Source: Microbacterium sp. SL75 (GTDB lineage: Bacteria > Actinomycetota > Actinomycetes > Actinomycetales > Microbacteriaceae). Taken from it: 64,000 bases of DNA. The notes beneath the pieces are model-generated. The model worked only from the letters and a program-made list of their open reading frames with translations, did no database searches and was not told the DNA's origin. Positions 41,330 to 53,210 of the stretch are shown here, piece by piece. The stretch lies in NCBI RefSeq assembly GCF_026625865.1, contig NZ_CP113067.1, forward strand, positions 930,001 through 994,000, read 5' to 3'. Numbering within the stretch: position 1 is the first letter of the stretch; every line of letters starts with the position of its first letter. Position numbers and translations under genes: made by a program.

Positions 41330-42811
41330 TTGTCGTTGCTGCAGTCCCCCCTCCTTTCGCAGACCGCCCCGAACCCGACGCCCGACCCCCTGCTGACGCC
41401 GGTCACCCCCGCCCCCGGTCAAGGCTCGACCGGCGTCACCGACACCGTCATCCCCGTCCAGCCCGGTACTTCCGCCCCCGGCGGGTTCCTTCCCGACTGG
41501 TCGATCGGGGAATGGCTCGGCTACAGCGGCGTCATCGTGCTCGCTCTCGCCCTGACCGTCGTCGCCACGACGACGCTGTGGTGGATGCTGCACGCCTGGC
41601 GCTCCGCCGACGACCTGCGGGCGACGCAGTTCAGCTCGTCCCCGCGACCCGCTCGACACCGCTTCACGCTCCTCGTCCCCGGCCGGCACGAGGAAGAGGT
41701 CATGGGCCAGACCCTCGATCGCCTCGCGCAACAGGATCACCCCGACTTCGAGATCATCGCGATCGTCGGGCACGACGACCCGGGCACCGAGCTCGTGGTC
41801 CGCCAGGCGGCAGCGCGGCATCCGGACCTCATCAAGGTCGTCGTCGATGACAGCGTCCCCAAGAACAAGCCCAAGGCGCTCAATCGCGCCCTGCAGATCG
41901 CCACCGGCGACGTGGTCGGCGTGTTCGACGCAGAAGACGAGGTGCACCCCGGTCTGCTCACCGTCGTCGACTCCAAGTTCCAGGAGACCGGTGCCGACGT
42001 GGTTCAGGGCGGCGTGCAGTTGATGAACTTCGAGACGAGCTGGTGGTCGCTGCGCAACGTGCTCGAGTACTACTTCTGGTTCCGCTCGCGTCTGCACTTC
42101 CACGCCCGGTCGAAGTTCATCCCGCTCGGGGGCAACACCGTCTTCGTCACTCGCGAGCGGCTGCAGTGGTCGGCCGGTTGGGACGACCAGTGCCTGGCCG
42201 AGGACTGCGAACTGGGCGTGCGCCTGTCGAGCGACGGCGCGAAGGTCGTCGTCGCCTACAACCCCGAATACGTCACGCGTGAGGAGACCCCGCCCACGTT
42301 GAAGTCGCTCTACAAGCAGCGCACGCGCTGGAACCAGGGCTTCCTGCAGGTGCTCGGCAAAGGCGAATGGAAGGCACTGCCGACCCTGCGCCAGCGCATG
42401 TACGCCCGTTACCTGCTGAACATGCCGTTCCTGCAGGCGGCGACCGGACTGCTGATCCCCATCTCGATCGCGTTCATCCTGCTGGTCAAGGTGCCGACGC
42501 CCGTCGCCCTCATCACGTTCCTCCCCCTGGTGCCGACGGTGATCACCCTCGTCGCGGAGGCTGCCGGGCTGACGGAGTTCGGACGCGTCTACGACAAGAA
42601 AGTGCGCGTGCGCGACTACGTCCGTCTCGTCCTCGGCCTCGTTCCCTACCAGGTGTTCCTCGCCGCCGCGGCCGTGCGCTCGGTCGTTCGCCAGCTCAAG
42701 GGCGACGGCAGCTGGGAGAAGACCGAGCACACGGGTGCGCACCGGGATGCCGCCGCGGCCCCGGCCGCGACGTCCGAACTCGTGACCACGACGGTGGCGG
42801 TGAACCGATGA
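41330..42811 (+). CDS. Processive GT2 membrane glycosyltransferase (QxxRW type)
   Basis: 493 aa from the TTG at 41330, chosen because GGAGG ends 5 nt before it; the in-frame ATG at 41309 has no ribosome site. A Pro/Thr-rich N-terminal segment is followed by a transmembrane helix (SGVIVLALALTVVATTTLWW). The GT2 domain contains VDDS (173-175), the DxD-type DAED (200-203), EDCE (291-294) with the catalytic Asp, and QRTRW (330-334). These four elements in this order mark cellulose/hyaluronan-synthase-like processive beta-glycosyltransferases. Two or three C-terminal helices complete the pore. It has no PilZ domain, so cyclic di-GMP control is not indicated. First of four coupled genes. Confidence 0.9.
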   Translation: MSLLQSPLLSQTAPNPTPDPLLTPVTPAPGQGSTGVTDTVIPVQPGTSAPGGFLPDWSIGEWLGYSGVIVLALALTVVATTTLWWMLHAWRSADDLRATQFSSSPRPARHRFTLLVPGRHEEEVMGQTLDRLAQQDHPDFEIIAIVGHDDPGTELVVRQAAARHPDLIKVVVDDSVPKNKPKALNRALQIATGDVVGVFDAEDEVHPGLLTVVDSKFQETGADVVQGGVQLMNFETSWWSLRNVLEYYFWFRSRLHFHARSKFIPLGGNTVFVTRERLQWSAGWDDQCLAEDCELGVRLSSDGAKVVVAYNPEYVTREETPPTLKSLYKQRTRWNQGFLQVLGKGEWKALPTLRQRMYARYLLNMPFLQAATGLLIPISIAFILLVKVPTPVALITFLPLVPTVITLVAEAAGLTEFGRVYDKKVRVRDYVRLVLGLVPYQVFLAAAAVRSVVRQLKGDGSWEKTEHTGAHRDAAAAPAATSELVTTTVAVNR

Positions 42812-44793
42812 CCTCCATCCTCGATCGCACGTCCCCTGCCCCCGCCTCTCGTCGAGCGGAGCGGGTGTCAGAGACCCGACGATCGCGGTGGCGCGAGCGT
42901 CTGGTCGATGCCGCGTGGCTTGTGCCTCCGCTGCTCATCGGCATCTTGGTCAATGCCCTCAACCTGGGCGGCTCACCCCAGCGCATCGACGACGAGGGCA
43001 CCTACACCGCCCAGGCGTGGAGCCTCGGCAATCTCGGCGAGCTGACTCACTACACGTACTGGTACGACCATCCGCCGCTCGGGTGGATCCAGATCGCGGC
43101 GTGGGCCGGGCTCACCGACGCGTGGGACCGATACGACGTCGCCGTGATCGCCGCCCGCGAGGCGATGCTGGTTGCGACCGCGATCGCCGCGGTGCTGCTG
43201 TGGTGCCTCGTACGCCGCATCGGATTCGCCCGGCTCACGGCATCCGTCGCCGTGGCGATCTTCCTGCTGTCGCCGCTCGCGGTGCAGTTCCACCGTCAGG
43301 TGTACCTCGACAACATCGCGACCGCGTGGTTGCTCGGTGCGCTGCTGCTCGCGATGAGTCGGCGCGCCCAGCTGATCGGCTACGCCGGTGCGGCGGCGGC
43401 CTTCGGTGTGGCGGTTCTCACGAAAGAGACCTACCTGCTGGCACTTCCGCTCGTGGCCTGGTTCATGTGGCGGGGCGCCGACCGGACGACGCGTCGGTAC
43501 ACGGTGTCGGTCGCGGCCTCCGTCCTCGCCCTGATCGGTCTGACCTACGTGGCGTTCGCGCTGGTGAAGGGCGAGGTGACCCCGGCACCCGGTCGGGTGA
43601 GCCTGTGGGACGGTCTCGCTTTCCAGCTGTCGTCGCGAGAGGGCAGCGGATCGCTCTTCGATCCCGAGAGCCTCATGTCGCGGACCATCGGTCTGTGGTG
43701 GCAGCTCGACGCCGTGCTCATCGTGACCGCGCTGGCCGCCGCCGTCGCCGCGCTGTTCGTTCGTCGCCTGAGGCCGTGGGCGATCACTCTGCTGGCGCTG
43801 ACGGCGTTCATGTTCCGCGGGGGCTACCTCCCTGTGCCGTACGTCATCATGCTGCTGCCGTTCGCCGCGATCGTCGTGGCCGGCATGGGCCAACGGGCCG
43901 TCGAAACGCTGCGCGCGGACGCCGTGCTGCAGCGCCTCACGGGTGTCGCGCTGGCCTCCGGCCTGATCGTCGCGCTCCTCGCGGCCGGGCCGCTGTGGGC
44001 GGCGCAGCTCCGGGGCTTCTTGCTCGCCGACCTCGATCGCCCCCTCCGTGACGCCGAGACATGGATGACCCAGAACGCGCCGGGAGACGCGCGCATGCTC
44101 GTCGACGACGCGATGTGGGTCGATCTCGTCGACGCCGGCTTCGACCGCGAGAACGTGGTCTGGTACTACAAGGCCGACACCGACACCGACGTGCAGCGGC
44201 TCGCTCCCGACGGGTGGCGCGACTACGACTACGTCGTCACCACGGACTCGATGCGCACGTTCCCCACCGAGTTCCCCACGGTGCGGCAGGCGATCGACAA
44301 CAGCGTGGTGGTGGCGTCCTTCGGCGAAGGCGCGCAACAAGTCGACGTGCGCCTCGTCGATCGCAACCAGGCGGCACTGGCCCAGGCTTCGGACGACGGG
44401 CTCTACGCCGCCCGATCCGTCGCCGGTCAGCAGCTCCTGCAGAACCCCGACGTCGGTGTGCCCGGCCCGGAGCAGGACCTGCTCACCTCCGGCATCGTGG
44501 ACGGCCGCATCCTGCTCACGCTGGGCCAGTTGGCGGCGACCGGTCGCGTCGATATCGCCGACATCGCACAGTTGGGAGGCGACCCCTCGGGCGTCCACCG
44601 GCAGCTCGTCGTGAGCTCGTTCGCCGGTCAGGACGCACGCGGTGACGCTCCCGGCGCTGACGAGGTCGTGCGGTTCTTCTCGTCGCTCGCGGGTCCTCTG
44701 CGCCCGGTCTCGGTCGAGCGAGGGGACGCCGGGGTGATCGTGACGTTCTCACCCGACGAACCCACCGACCTGCTCCCCCGTCCCGCTTCATGA
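42808..44793 (+). CDS. GT-C-type (GT39/ArnT-like) integral membrane glycosyltransferase
   Basis: 661 aa; start ATG at 42808 overlaps the stop of the GT2 gene (ATGA). About ten transmembrane helices in the first 420 residues. The first extracytoplasmic loop carries RIDDEGTYTAQAWSLG, the acidic pair expected for a GT-C catalytic base, and THYTYWYDHPPLGWIQ, a second loop motif of this family. The C-terminal 240 residues form a soluble extracytoplasmic domain. GT-C enzymes use polyprenyl-phosphate sugars, so it may decorate the GT2 polymer or a surface protein. Acceptor and sugar are unknown. Confidence 0.85.
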   Translation: MTSILDRTSPAPASRRAERVSETRRSRWRERLVDAAWLVPPLLIGILVNALNLGGSPQRIDDEGTYTAQAWSLGNLGELTHYTYWYDHPPLGWIQIAAWAGLTDAWDRYDVAVIAAREAMLVATAIAAVLLWCLVRRIGFARLTASVAVAIFLLSPLAVQFHRQVYLDNIATAWLLGALLLAMSRRAQLIGYAGAAAAFGVAVLTKETYLLALPLVAWFMWRGADRTTRRYTVSVAASVLALIGLTYVAFALVKGEVTPAPGRVSLWDGLAFQLSSREGSGSLFDPESLMSRTIGLWWQLDAVLIVTALAAAVAALFVRRLRPWAITLLALTAFMFRGGYLPVPYVIMLLPFAAIVVAGMGQRAVETLRADAVLQRLTGVALASGLIVALLAAGPLWAAQLRGFLLADLDRPLRDAETWMTQNAPGDARMLVDDAMWVDLVDAGFDRENVVWYYKADTDTDVQRLAPDGWRDYDYVVTTDSMRTFPTEFPTVRQAIDNSVVVASFGEGAQQVDVRLVDRNQAALAQASDDGLYAARSVAGQQLLQNPDVGVPGPEQDLLTSGIVDGRILLTLGQLAATGRVDIADIAQLGGDPSGVHRQLVVSSFAGQDARGDAPGADEVVRFFSSLAGPLRPVSVERGDAGVIVTFSPDEPTDLLPRPAS

Positions 44794-44840
44794 TCCCGTT
44801 CACCCGTTCGATCCCCCTCCCCCCGAAGAAAGGATCCGCC

Positions 44841-45737
44841 ATGACCATCTCCTCCCCCTCCCCCCGTCCCGCCCGTCGGTCTCGGATCGGCCTGCGCGGC
44901 CTTGCCCTGACCGCCGCAGCCGTACTCCCCCTGGCCCTCGGCGTCGCAACGGCGCCCGCGGCGATGGCCGCACCGGCCGCACCGAGCGGCTGGGCCCGGG
45001 TCGCGCATCTCTCGCCCGATACCAAATCGGTCGACGTGCAGATGACCGCGCTGGCCGGCGGTGCGGTCGTCTACGAGCTCGACGACGTCTCGTACGGCGC
45101 GGTGAGCGACTACATCCCTCTCGCCGAGGGAACGTACGTCGTGTCGATGGTCCCCTCCGACGCCACGGACGACTCCGAACCCGTCGTGCAGCAGTCGGTG
45201 GAGGTGTCGGCGGGAGAGCCCATCACCGTTGCGGCATACGGGCGCAACGCCGAGCTGAAGACCACCGTCTTCGACGACGACCTCTCCGCCCCGGCGGAGG
45301 GCCAGGCACGCGTGCGCGTCGTGCAGGCGTCCACGCTCGAGCCCCGCGTCGACGTCGACACGGCGGAGGGCCGGTCGATCGCGCAGGCCGTGACCTCCGG
45401 CTCCGCAACCGGCTACGCCGCCGTGCCCGCCGGCTCTTGGAACCTCGAGCTCTCGGGCGCAGACGAAACGGCATCCTCCGCCGTCGCCCTTCCCGCGGGG
45501 AGCGTCTCGACCATCTTCGTGCTCGACGACGCCGCGGGCGCGCTGACCGCCCGGACGGTCACCGACTCGGCGACTCTCGCCGACATGCCCACCGGCGGTA
45601 TCCACACGGGCGGCGGCGGCACGGCGGTGCAGTCCGCGGCGCCCGCTGGGCTCATCGGCGGCGTCGTCGCACTCCTCGGCGGACTCGTTGCGACGATGGT
45701 GGTGCTGCGCCGTCGGTCCTCGAAGGGCACCGCATGA
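44841..45737 (+). CDS. DUF4397 surface protein with class F-type C-terminal sorting region
   Basis: 298 aa from the ATG at 44841 (AAAGGA upstream). An ATG at 44790, overlapping the previous stop as ATGA, would add 17 residues and hide the signal peptide. Signal peptide 1-45 (GLALTAAAVLPLALGVATAP ... MAAPAAP). Two DUF4397 beta-sandwich repeats follow (ARVAHLSPDTKSVDVQMT near 52; ARVRVVQASTLEPRVDVD near 155). The tail reads DMPTGGIHTGGGGTAVQ, then a transmembrane helix and RRRSSKG. The MPTGG...TGGGGTA stretch resembles the conserved tail of DUF4397 proteins found next to class F sortases. It is the likely substrate of the sortase encoded next. Confidence 0.85.
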   Translation: MTISSPSPRPARRSRIGLRGLALTAAAVLPLALGVATAPAAMAAPAAPSGWARVAHLSPDTKSVDVQMTALAGGAVVYELDDVSYGAVSDYIPLAEGTYVVSMVPSDATDDSEPVVQQSVEVSAGEPITVAAYGRNAELKTTVFDDDLSAPAEGQARVRVVQASTLEPRVDVDTAEGRSIAQAVTSGSATGYAAVPAGSWNLELSGADETASSAVALPAGSVSTIFVLDDAAGALTARTVTDSATLADMPTGGIHTGGGGTAVQSAAPAGLIGGVVALLGGLVATMVVLRRRSSKGTA

Positions 45738-47368
45738 TGCGCGGGAGGAAGACCCTCGCGACCGCTGTCGTCGCCGCGGTCTGCGTCGTGACGCTCAGTG
45801 CATGCACCGCGCCGGCGCAGCAGGTCTCCGACGCCCGCGAGCGCACCGTCGCCACGGCATCCGCGTTCCTGTCGACCTACGTCGACGACGGACGCGTCGT
45901 GCGAACCGATCAGGGTGGCGACACGGTGAGTGAGGGGCAGGCGTACGGCCTGCTCCTGGCCGTGGCCGCCGACGACGAGGAGCAGTTCGACCGGATCTGG
46001 GACTGGACCGTCGACAACCTGCAGCGCGACGACCTGCTGCTGTCCTGGCAGTGGAAGGACGGCTCCGTCGTCGACGATCAGCCCGCTTCCGACGCCGACC
46101 TCGACGCCGCGCGCGCCCTGGTGCTGGCCGGCGACGAGTTCGGACGCGACGACCTCCGCGAGCGAGGAGTCGAGCTGGGTACGGCGCTGCTCGATCGCAT
46201 GACCGCGACCACCGCCCTCGGCCGCATCCTGCTGCCGGGGCCGTGGGCCACCTCGACGCCGCACGCTTACAACCCCTCCTACGCATCGCCGGCCGCATAC
46301 GCGGTGTTGTCGGACGCGTCGGGGGACACCCGGTGGGACGAACTGGCCGAGGGCAGTCGCGCAGCCACCGCGGCTCTGCTCGACGCGAATCCCCTGCCGA
46401 CCAACTGGGCAACGGTCGCCGACGACGGCACAGTAGCGATCGCCGGCTCCGCGGGCGGCGGCGGCGAGCCGCGGTACGGATACGACGCCGTTCGCACGCC
46501 GATCCGCTTCGCGGAGTCGTGCGATCCCGCTGACCGTGCACTCGCGGGTCGGATGGCCGACGCGCTCCCCACGGATGAGGTGCTGCCCGCCGAGTTGGAC
46601 TCCGGTGGCGGGGGCGTCACCGGCGATCGGCACGCGAGCGCCTACGCGGCTCGAGCCGCAGCCCTCGCCGGCGGCGATCGCGACGAGGCCGCGCGCGCGG
46701 ACCTCTCGCGCATGACCGAGACCTCCTCGAGCACGCCGACGTACTACGGCGACGCATGGAACGCCTTGACCACGGCCATGCTGAGCGACGATGTGCTCGG
46801 CGGCTGCCCGCCGCTGAGCGACGACGGGGCGGCGGCGGGCGCGACCAGCGGGGGCGCCGCCGCCGCAGGCGACGCGCGCGGGGCCGCAGCGGGGCTGCAG
46901 GACCCGGTCTCAGCGCCCGCTGCCTCTAGCGCGACGCCCACGCACATCTCGATTCCCGCCATCGGCGTCGACTCCGACCTCGTCGGCCTGGATCGCGGAG
47001 CAGACGGGTGGATCGAAGCCCCCACCGATTACAACGCGGTCGGATGGTACGAGAAGGGCGTGCTGCCCGGAGCCGTGGGACCTGCCGTGATCGCGGCGCA
47101 CGTCGATTCACCCACGGGCCCCGCCGTCTTCTTCGACCTCCCGCGGCTCGAAGCCGGAGACCGGGTGTCGATATCGCGCAGCGACGGCACGACGGCGACC
47201 TTCGTCGTGACCGGTTTGCAGACCGTCGAGAAGGACACCTTCCCCACCGCGTCGATCTATGCTCCCGTCCCCACCCCGGAACTGCGCATCGTGACGTGTG
47301 CGGGGGCGTGGGACCCGGCCACCGGCCACTACGTGGACAACCTGGTCGTTACGGCCGTAGCCGGCTGA
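45734..47368 (+). CDS. Lipoprotein fusing a GH8 glucanase domain to a class F sortase domain
   Basis: 544 aa; ATG at 45734 overlaps the DUF4397 stop (ATGA). Signal peptide with lipobox LSAC near residue 24. Residues about 35-370 are glycoside hydrolase family 8: catalytic acid Glu67 in VSEGQAYGLLLAVA, Asp120-Asp124 in ASDADLDAARALVLA, then NPSYASPAAY and a late YYGDAWNALTTAML. An Ala/Gly linker follows (about 371-398). Residues about 400-544 are a class F sortase: IPAIGVDSDLVGL, His456 in AAHVDSPTGPA and Cys522 in LRIVTCAGAWDP. The usual Arg after the Cys is not evident in TCAGAWDPATGHYVDN. It would trim beta-1,4-glucan and anchor the DUF4397 protein at the same site. Fusion is direct; joint function is inference. 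Confidence 0.88.
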   Translation: MMRGRKTLATAVVAAVCVVTLSACTAPAQQVSDARERTVATASAFLSTYVDDGRVVRTDQGGDTVSEGQAYGLLLAVAADDEEQFDRIWDWTVDNLQRDDLLLSWQWKDGSVVDDQPASDADLDAARALVLAGDEFGRDDLRERGVELGTALLDRMTATTALGRILLPGPWATSTPHAYNPSYASPAAYAVLSDASGDTRWDELAEGSRAATAALLDANPLPTNWATVADDGTVAIAGSAGGGGEPRYGYDAVRTPIRFAESCDPADRALAGRMADALPTDEVLPAELDSGGGGVTGDRHASAYAARAAALAGGDRDEAARADLSRMTETSSSTPTYYGDAWNALTTAMLSDDVLGGCPPLSDDGAAAGATSGGAAAAGDARGAAAGLQDPVSAPAASSATPTHISIPAIGVDSDLVGLDRGADGWIEAPTDYNAVGWYEKGVLPGAVGPAVIAAHVDSPTGPAVFFDLPRLEAGDRVSISRSDGTTATFVVTGLQTVEKDTFPTASIYAPVPTPELRIVTCAGAWDPATGHYVDNLVVTAVAG

Positions 47369-48818: not shown

Positions 48819-49727
48819 ATGCCCGGTGCCGGTGACGTCTCCCTCCCGCCCGGCGGCGTGCAGAAGCTTCTGAACAACAACGTCGTCGTGGCGATCGACG
48901 GCGACGGCCGCGAGCGCGTGCTCATGGGTCGGGGCATCGGCTTCCAGCTCAAGCACGAGGGCCGCGTCGATCCCGCGAAGGTCGAGAAGACGTTCGTCCT
49001 CGAGCAGGGCAGCGACACCGCTCACGCCCAGAAGCTCCTCACCGACGCGCCGTACGCGCTCGTCGAGGCGGTCCTGCACGCCGTCGACCAGGCCGAGCGC
49101 GACCTGGGTCGCGACCTGGGGCGCCGGCTACCGCTCGCGGTCATCGACCACATCACCTATGTGATCGAACGCCTCGATCAGGGCATCCGCATCCCCGGCA
49201 CCTCCATGCCCGAGCTACGGATCCTCCACCCCGACGAATCACGCGCCGCGGAGCGCATGGCGACCTCGATCGCGGCCTCCCTCGACCGTGAGCTCCCGCC
49301 CGAAGAGGGCGTGTTCCTGACGATGCACCTGCTCAACGCCACGCGCGACGAGCCCAACGGCACCGCGGCCCTGCTGTTCCGTCGGGTGCAGCACGTCGTG
49401 CGCACCGTCGAGACCGGCCTCGGCGTCGCGCTCGACACCGAGAGCCCCGACTACGCGCGTTTCATCCTGCACGTGCGCTTCCTGCTGCAGCGGCTCGTGA
49501 ACCGCGCGATGCTCTCGAGCGGCGACTCGTCTTTCTTCGAGTTCGCCAAGCACCGTTACCCCCGCGCCTTTGGCATCGCCGAGGCCGTCAAGGCCTACGT
49601 CCTCGCGGCGACCGGGTCGACCCTCACCGACGAGGAGGTGCTCTACCTCACGGTGCATGTCGAGCGCCTCGCGACGAGCCTGGGCCGCGCCGACGACAGT
49701 GGCGGCCCCGACGCCCCGGTGCTATAG
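48819..49727 (+). CDS. bglG: BglG/LicT-family transcription antiterminator with two PRD domains
   Basis: 302 aa from the ATG at 48819. The N-terminal RNA-binding (CAT) domain contains VQKLLNNNVVVAIDGDGRER and VLMGRGIGFQLKHEGRVD. PRD1 follows (EAVLHAVDQAERD, VIDHITYVIERLDQG with conserved His), then PRD2 (ILHVRFLLQRLVNR, LYLTVHVERLAT). In this family PTS components phosphorylate the PRD histidines; the active dimer binds a RAT hairpin in the leader of the target mRNA. That target is immediately downstream (49765-49793), before the PTS gene. Confidence 0.93.
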   Translation: MPGAGDVSLPPGGVQKLLNNNVVVAIDGDGRERVLMGRGIGFQLKHEGRVDPAKVEKTFVLEQGSDTAHAQKLLTDAPYALVEAVLHAVDQAERDLGRDLGRRLPLAVIDHITYVIERLDQGIRIPGTSMPELRILHPDESRAAERMATSIAASLDRELPPEEGVFLTMHLLNATRDEPNGTAALLFRRVQHVVRTVETGLGVALDTESPDYARFILHVRFLLQRLVNRAMLSSGDSSFFEFAKHRYPRAFGIAEAVKAYVLAATGSTLTDEEVLYLTVHVERLATSLGRADDSGGPDAPVL

Positions 49728-49764
49728 TCACCGTCGCAGGCGTCACACCCTGCCGACGTTTTCC

Positions 49765-49839
49765 GGATTGTTACCGCGCGAGCGGGCAAGACCTGAATCC
49801 ACATCGCTGACGAGCGATGAACGGATTCGGGTCTTTTTT
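49765..49839 (+). promoter_or_regulatory. RAT antiterminator site overlapping an intrinsic terminator
   Basis: GGATTGTTACCGCGCGAGCG continuing to GGCAAGACC (49765-49793) matches the ribonucleic antiterminator bound by LicT/BglG. AGACC-T-GAATCC (49789-49800) pairs with GGATTC-G-GGTCT (49823-49834), followed by six T, a standard terminator unusual at this GC level. The RAT and the 5' arm of the terminator share 49789-49793, so binding of BglG would prevent the terminator from forming. An inner helix ATCGCT/AGCGAT tops the loop. Confidence 0.93.
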
Positions 49840-49918
49840 ATTGCCCGAAACACCCGGCAGCGTCGCCACAGAACATTCGAACAGGCCGCATCGATGCGGC
49901 GAAAGGCAGGCGGTTCCG

Positions 49919-53210
<3,292 letters not shown>

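Follow-up and report, generated by a model that had tools for sequence, protein, structure and literature searches.

An examination of a 64,000-nucleotide stretch from the 3.44-Mb genome of Microbacterium sp. SL75 (positions 930001-994000 of contig NZ_CP113067.1; hereafter the window, in whose coordinates positions are given) identified a locus, at 41330-47368, in which four genes on the forward strand form one tight run encoding a processive-type GT2 membrane glycosyltransferase, a GT-C transferase with a C-terminal extension (EXT), a DUF4397 surface protein, and a lipoprotein in which a GH8 beta-glucanase is fused to a class F sortase. These family assignments, already made in a first-pass annotation of the open reading frames, were corroborated by Pfam, NCBIfam and motif searches and, for the GT-C protein, by the fold of a predicted model. 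Judged from sequence comparisons, the locus probably builds a cellulose-like surface chain paired with a surface protein that its own sortase fixes to the wall, and is composed of two separable units, with the GT-C protein as their point of junction; the fuller reading, in which a surface beta-glucan synthase would have its transferase dock onto a wall-anchoring protein module, is given a probability of about 0.5.

The separability of the two units is indicated by their joint presence and loss across 62 scored loci (L009, L016, L070-L109 and L179-L198), which were drawn from 20 of 29 full-length GT-C matches and 10 of 23 lower-scoring places in the family, from 10 of the 13 phylum genomes that matched besides the window's own, and from an EXT search of 296 genomes, which matched 30 apart from the own genome and contributed 20 regions from 19 of these; L009 and L016 were added from the GH8-sortase search described below. 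Twenty-five of these loci (class A) carried EXT together with the intact GT-C motifs DDEG and YDHPP; all 25 also encoded GT2, DUF4397 and GH8, and 24 a sortase. At 17 others (class B) EXT, DUF4397 and sortase were retained with the GT-C motifs lost or GT-C itself absent (L100 keeps YDHPP and not the acidic motif; at L106 and L107 no GT-C membrane part was detected; at L191 the gene order differs), and there GH8 was found at 0 of 17 and GT2 at only 1 of 17 (L101, where the GT2 motifs were not found). Fourteen (class C, including L109, truncated by a contig end) paired GT2 with a GT-C protein lacking EXT, and in none of their regions was DUF4397 or sortase found; five of them (L096, L097, L099, L102 and L105) were without a full DDE by pattern, having NDE or another sequence. 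The remaining six (class D) gave weak EXT-like matches of 35-68 bits, and DUF4397 and sortase were not found beside them.

The difference in GH8 between classes A and B corresponds to a Fisher p of 4e-12 when descent is ignored, and on a 41-tip DUF4397 plus sortase tree that carries no branch support about 8 changes in the presence of GH8 are counted, where shuffling gives a mean of 13.2 and a minimum of 7, so that the joint loss is not a single event. Because DUF4397 and sortase persist in 17 of the 62 loci without intact GT-C or GH8, the two units are separable, and the sortase would serve the DUF4397 protein first. EXT follows this second unit: DUF4397 and sortase were found at 28 of 28 EXT-bearing loci and at 0 of 14 loci without EXT, and when class genomes were searched with EXT, 22 of the 30 places fetched had DUF4397 adjoining.

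Conservation of gene order further tied the genes together. A search for GH8-sortase proteins returned 15 loci (13 in Microbacterium, one in Microbacteriaceae, the near-identical L002, and one in Actinomycetota), of which 13 have the four genes complete and in the window's order, whereas the sequence of two, L005 and L008, starts within GT-C because the contig ends there. M. testaceum is among the carriers of the locus (L009, L013). Matches to GT-C at E<=1e-10 were present in 47 of 299 Microbacteriaceae genomes and in 14 of 396 genomes phylum-wide (own included in both), and the order GT2, GT-C, DUF4397, GH8, sortase was kept in all 20 Microbacteriaceae regions, which represent 20 of the 29 full-length GT-C matches with the own genome excluded. 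The proposal in the first-pass annotation that the four genes, in this order, form a linked system is upheld both by that order and by the fact that GT2, GT-C catalysis and GH8 vanish together in EXT-bearing loci. The GH8-sortase fusion that it described is likewise real, and of 198 Microbacterium genomes 14 hold it, the window's own among them, but GH8 and sortase share one frame in only 1 of the 20 Microbacteriaceae regions (L073), are separate genes at L016 (Microbacterium sp. 1.5R), and lie within about 1 kb of each other as GH8 and a separate sortase in 6 further genomes of the 198; since they are separate genes in most relatives, the fusion is derived. At L014 (8001-9561), in a draft genome, the GH8-sortase match is split over two frames.

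Most relatives carry a fifth gene, a small GT2, after the sortase (directly after the fusion in L005, L007 and L010), whose copy at L016 is nearest, among solved structures, to the dolichol-phosphate mannose (DPM) synthase 5mlz (E 3.4e-36). Such a DPM-like gene adjoins 19 of the 25 loci of class A, which lends indirect support to the proposed use of a polyprenyl-phosphate sugar by GT-C, and 0 of the 17 loci of class B. The four genes were correctly described, but in most relatives a putative polyprenol-phosphate-sugar synthase belongs to it, which is absent beside the window's locus; three distant matches to it, the best at 34% identity, occur in the own genome.

The likeliest product, as had been suggested from the first, is of the beta-glucan type. 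GH8 enzymes are inverting endoglucanases, in a family that also includes chitosanases, and the best PDB matches of the GH8 domain were two named endoglucanases, 6vc5 and 1wzz, the latter of which we take to be Acetobacter CMCax. The active-site motifs of the domain align with those of E. coli BcsZ, and it scored 123 bits (E 1.1e-35) against the BcsZ model, under the cut-off of 299. Elsewhere, a GH5 cellulase lies near the GT2/GT-C pair at L097, and a galactose-oxidase-like (GlxA-like) protein lies near the pair at L091-L095 (5 of 5 by similarity; Pfam on L094 only), and at three other loci, described below, GH8 is fused to GT-C. No deacetylase domain was found by Pfam among the four locus proteins. 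In the five genomes of L091-L095, Streptomyces-like in size and gene content, the GT2, GT-C, DPM-like and galactose-oxidase-like genes stand in a row, an arrangement apparently distinct from cslA-glxA.

In the GT2 enzyme the motifs FDAED, AED and QRTRW were invariant across 8 aligned sequences, and the nearest NCBIfam models were those of an XrtP-associated glycosyltransferase (82.7 bits), PgaC (73.7 bits) and BcsA/CelA (24.9 bits, against a cut-off of 699 for CelA), all far under their cut-offs. Pfam detected no PilZ, BcsB or BcsC domain in the seven proteins encoded by the run and the genes flanking it, in agreement with the first-pass annotation; the locus, which that annotation read as an actinobacterial counterpart of BcsA/BcsZ, is not a plain one, the GT2 enzyme scoring closer to PgaC than to BcsA.

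The Pfam PMT model gave 16 bits with the GT-C protein, under its cut-off of 22.7. The AlphaFold model (pLDDT 86), compared with solved structures, matched the folds of ArnT, OST, PMT, ALG12 and Emb over residues 23-522, and with DDEG and YDHPP present in its sequence the protein is, on this predicted model, a GT-C-fold glycosyltransferase with an acidic catalytic motif. The extension that follows has no Pfam family (each of four families was matched by a single one of the 15 members, the best at E 0.022). Its fold is tentatively assigned as Hedgehog/MepA-like (that is, DD-peptidase-like), and a 15-row alignment contained no zinc-binding His/Asp set and no conserved His, its invariant residues being G11, L14, N17 and G33. 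The suggestion that EXT replaces the transmembrane tail of the DUF4397 protein was dropped, since EXT is found with both tail types. At L098, L102 and L105 GT-C and GH8 are fused in one protein, in which the GH8 motifs are intact at L098 and the GH8 SEGQ is gone at L102 and L105.

The second unit centers on the sortase and the protein encoded beside it. The sortase domain scored 171.6 bits against the class F model NF033748 (cut-off 166); a single class F match was found in the own genome at E<=0.001, and among 14 control genomes one had a match and none exceeded the cut-off. The GH8-sortase protein begins with a readable lipobox (LSAC), and the GH8 residues E67, D120, D122 and D251 and the sortase residues H456, C522 and R518, all presumably catalytic, were invariant in 12 aligned sequences, the window's included. 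A PDB search with the sortase domain alone gave no significant match, and one with a Streptomyces-like class F domain gave 5uus only (E 0.039). The canonical sortase Arg lies 12 residues after the Cys; a specific loss of that residue here was considered and dropped, since of 15 class F sequences sampled only 4 have an Arg at that place, while 12 have one four residues before the Cys. A Q[DNEA]P peptide precedes the sortase domain in the linker at 29 of 41 loci (29 of 29 in the window's family, 0 of 12 outside it).

The tail of the DUF4397 protein scored 26.5 bits as a protein, and 31 in the genome scan, against the sorting model GVDTG_CTERM (NF058571, cut-off 29). In the own genome the one tail over that cut-off and the one class F sortase match both occur at this locus; 10 of 14 control genomes contained sub-cut-off matches at E<=1, and 0 of 14 a match over the cut-off. 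The sorting-like tail noted in the first-pass annotation is thus a plausible partner of the sortase. Among the 120 best-listed of at least 587 DUF4397 relatives with E<=1e-10, the motif G[GPS][VILS]x[TA]G[GA]G was present in 116 (in its strict form, GG[VI]xTGGG, in 113), and 60 of the 116 have a transmembrane tail. Similar motifs end other proteins encoded directly before class F sortases, namely a DUF11 protein (L133) and an ice-binding-like protein (L138). In a survey of 29 class F loci (L120-L148, the best locus of each of 29 genomes), 14 had an upstream gene ending in a [GADP][VIA]x[TA]GxG-type motif, transmembrane segment and basic tail (10 by script pattern and 4, L124, L128, L131 and L136, by eye), three had looser tails, 11 had none that was seen, and one, L132, has DUF4397 and sortase in a single frame. 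From these motifs, GG[VI]xTGGG is probably a sortase signal, and the broader motif with its transmembrane segment and basic tail is a candidate for a wider class F sorting signal. The frame at L132 (118-1965) runs stop to stop across DUF4397, tail motif and class F sortase, a possible direct fusion. With DUF4397 tails classed by hand, 17 of the 25 in class A lack a transmembrane segment, against 3 of the 17 in class B, so that such tails are commoner in class A (Fisher p 0.0018, descent ignored).

From gene order, domains, motifs, the pattern of joint presence and loss, and the predicted GT-C fold, a series of steps may be proposed: (i) from a nucleotide sugar GT2 would polymerize a hexan with beta linkages, the likeliest being beta-1,4-glucan or something close to it, and extrude the chain; (ii) GT-C, fed by a polyprenyl-phosphate sugar, would add a sugar to the chain outside the membrane; (iii) GH8 would trim or release the chain; (iv) EXT would dock GT-C to the DUF4397 protein or to the wall; and (v) the class F sortase would cleave GG[VI]xTGGG, fixing the DUF4397 protein covalently near the synthase, where it might contact the glucan. 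The acceptor of GT-C is more likely to be the glucan than a protein, because in EXT-bearing loci the loss of GT-C catalysis goes along with that of GT2 and GH8, DUF4397 being retained. A more elaborate form of this proposal, put forward tentatively, is a protein-anchored beta-glucan: a catalytically dead Hedgehog/DD-peptidase-like EXT would tie a GT-C that modifies the glucan outside the cytoplasm to a DUF4397 protein locked into the wall by a dedicated class F sortase through the non-LPXTG signal GG[VI]xTGGG, making glucan deposition and wall anchoring one machine, and EXT, DUF4397 and sortase F would be an older wall module repeatedly used by lineages with or without glucan enzymes.

Several observations weigh against a glucan synthase docked to an anchoring module. 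The donor-synthase gene was not found beside the window's locus or beside 11 close GH8-sortase loci; 56 of the 116 motif-bearing DUF4397 relatives lack a transmembrane segment and end 16-32 residues after the motif, and the GVDTG model was matched by only 1 of 8 relatives scanned. At L190, the exception in class A, no sortase was detected, and EXT (31 bits) and DUF4397 (51 bits) are both weakly matched; the six class-D places have neither DUF4397 nor sortase. GH8 accompanies only 4 of the 14 class-C loci (L090, L098, L102 and L105), and two of those four, L102 and L105, besides lacking SEGQ, have NDE instead of DDE in GT-C. The scored loci are, moreover, related by descent. Finally, the GT2 profile scored E. 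coli PgaC at 37.8 bits, NfrB at 25.9 and BcsA at 11.8, and because the enzyme resembles PgaC more than BcsA, its polymer need not be a glucan.

Two of the rival explanations are unlikely. In the first, a GT-C resembling protein O-mannosyltransferases would glycosylate the DUF4397 protein, GT2 would build or prime the glycan, and the sortase would anchor the resulting glycoprotein; the closeness of the GT-C fold to PMT and OST, the resemblance of the relatives' fifth gene to a dolichol-phosphate mannose synthase, and the adjacency of the DUF4397 and GT-C genes are all in keeping with this, but all 17 class-B loci keep DUF4397 and sortase despite the lost GT-C catalysis, with GH8 gone from 17 and GT2 from 16, and GT-C chemistry therefore tracks the glucan unit and not the DUF4397 protein. 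The second, to which a similarly low probability is assigned, would have independent functions share one operon, an unanchored exopolysaccharide made by GT2 and GT-C and trimmed by GH8 beside an unrelated sortase-anchored DUF4397 protein. Each half does occur alone, since 14 of the 62 loci have GT2/GT-C and none of EXT, DUF4397 and sortase, and 17 have EXT, DUF4397 and sortase and no intact GT-C, but EXT is physically part of GT-C and tracks DUF4397 and sortase, and the GH8-sortase fusions of Microbacterium and L073 join the halves again. That the polymer is a PgaC-type aminosugar chain, with GH8 acting like a chitosanase, is improbable, for although the PgaC scores of GT2 and the chitosanases within GH8 would suit it, the GH8 domain is nearest to endoglucanases and BcsZ, a deacetylase domain is missing from the four proteins, and the neighbors at other loci are a GlxA-like oxidase and GH5.

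Features of the locus, in window coordinates
Feature	Position	Strand	Basis or remark
GT2 membrane glycosyltransferase, processive type	41330..42811	+	PF13641 E 1.5e-40; alternative start ATG 41309
GT-C transferase, polyprenyl-phosphate-sugar type, with C-terminal extension	42808..44793	+	AlphaFold model, fold matches, DDEG and YDHPP
EXT, C-terminal extension of GT-C (residues 529-661)	44392..44790	+	
DUF4397 surface protein: signal peptide, PTGGIHTGGGG, transmembrane segment and RRR tail	44841..45737	+	PF14344 E 6.5e-33
Lipoprotein, GH8 beta-glucanase fused to class F sortase	45734..47368	+	PF01270 E 6e-30; PF04203 E 1.5e-20
Class F sortase domain	46922..47365	+	sole class F sortase match in own genome

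The three ATGA or near overlaps originally reported between these genes reduce to two firm ones, at 42808-42811 (GT2/GT-C) and 45734-45737 (DUF4397/GH8-sortase); a third is present in the sequence at 44790-44793, but the ATG at 44841 is the more likely DUF4397 start, because AAGAAAGGA lies six bases upstream of it and a signal peptide follows, and a gap of 47 bp then separates DUF4397 from GT-C. The tabulated GT2 start is a TTG with GGAGG five bases upstream. A regulator-like gene (judged by eye) lies upstream of the run and rlmN, on the opposite strand, downstream; beyond rlmN, at 48867-51775, are a BglG-type antiterminator (CAT_RBD and PRD) and a PTS EIIBCA transporter.

In the open-access literature no description was found of a glucan synthase combined with a surface protein anchored by its own sortase; nor were class F sortase and DUF4397 found together, or sortase with cellulose synthase and glycoside hydrolase family 8, or Microbacterium cellulose synthase or exopolysaccharide with sortase. 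That literature likewise yielded nothing joining the GVDTG sorting domain with a sortase, only unrelated matches for GVDTG by itself, and no DUF4397 title or abstract about such a locus. According to a 2026 report in mBio (PMC13251363), it is unknown what class F sortases do physiologically; the report describes two possible substrates, encoded next to class F genes, that lack a known pentapeptide, and it saw no phenotype when Actinoplanes missouriensis lost its four class F genes together. The present locus offers a single class F sortase beside a single matching tail in one genome, a candidate sorting motif in several lineages, and, in surface-glycan synthesis, a function against which the role of a class F sortase can be tested.

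Compared with the class F sortases and GVDTG domain (NF058571) already described, the sortase lies over the class cut-off and the tail near the sorting-model cut-off, but here the sortase shares a protein with GH8 and has a glycan synthase linked to it, and many relatives lack the tail transmembrane segment. With ArnT, PMT and Emb (5ezm, 5f15, 6p25, 7bvf) the GT-C protein shares the fold of residues 23-522, the acidic DDE motif and, in relatives of the window's locus, a nearby donor-synthase gene; unlike them, it carries EXT or, in other lineages, a fused GH8. The bcs operons (bcsA-bcsB-bcsZ, and also a Clostridium system named in PMC11022532) similarly place a GT2 synthase and a GH8 enzyme, with common active-site motifs, in one run, whereas here the GT2 is far from BcsA, the PilZ, BcsB and BcsC domains are missing, and GT-C, DUF4397, sortase and, in most relatives, a polyprenol-phosphate-sugar synthase are added. 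Alongside CslA-GlxA, the locus points towards another way for actinobacteria to make a cellulose-like surface glycan. The Streptomyces cslA-glxA-cslZ system, as presented in PMC11022532 and PMC3543389, likewise joins an actinobacterial GT2 with a beta-glucanase, and its galactose-oxidase-like partner is matched in the Streptomyces-like relatives L091-L095, but CslA pairs directly with GlxA, whereas here GT2 pairs with GT-C and, in those relatives, a DPM-like protein stands between GT-C and the oxidase.

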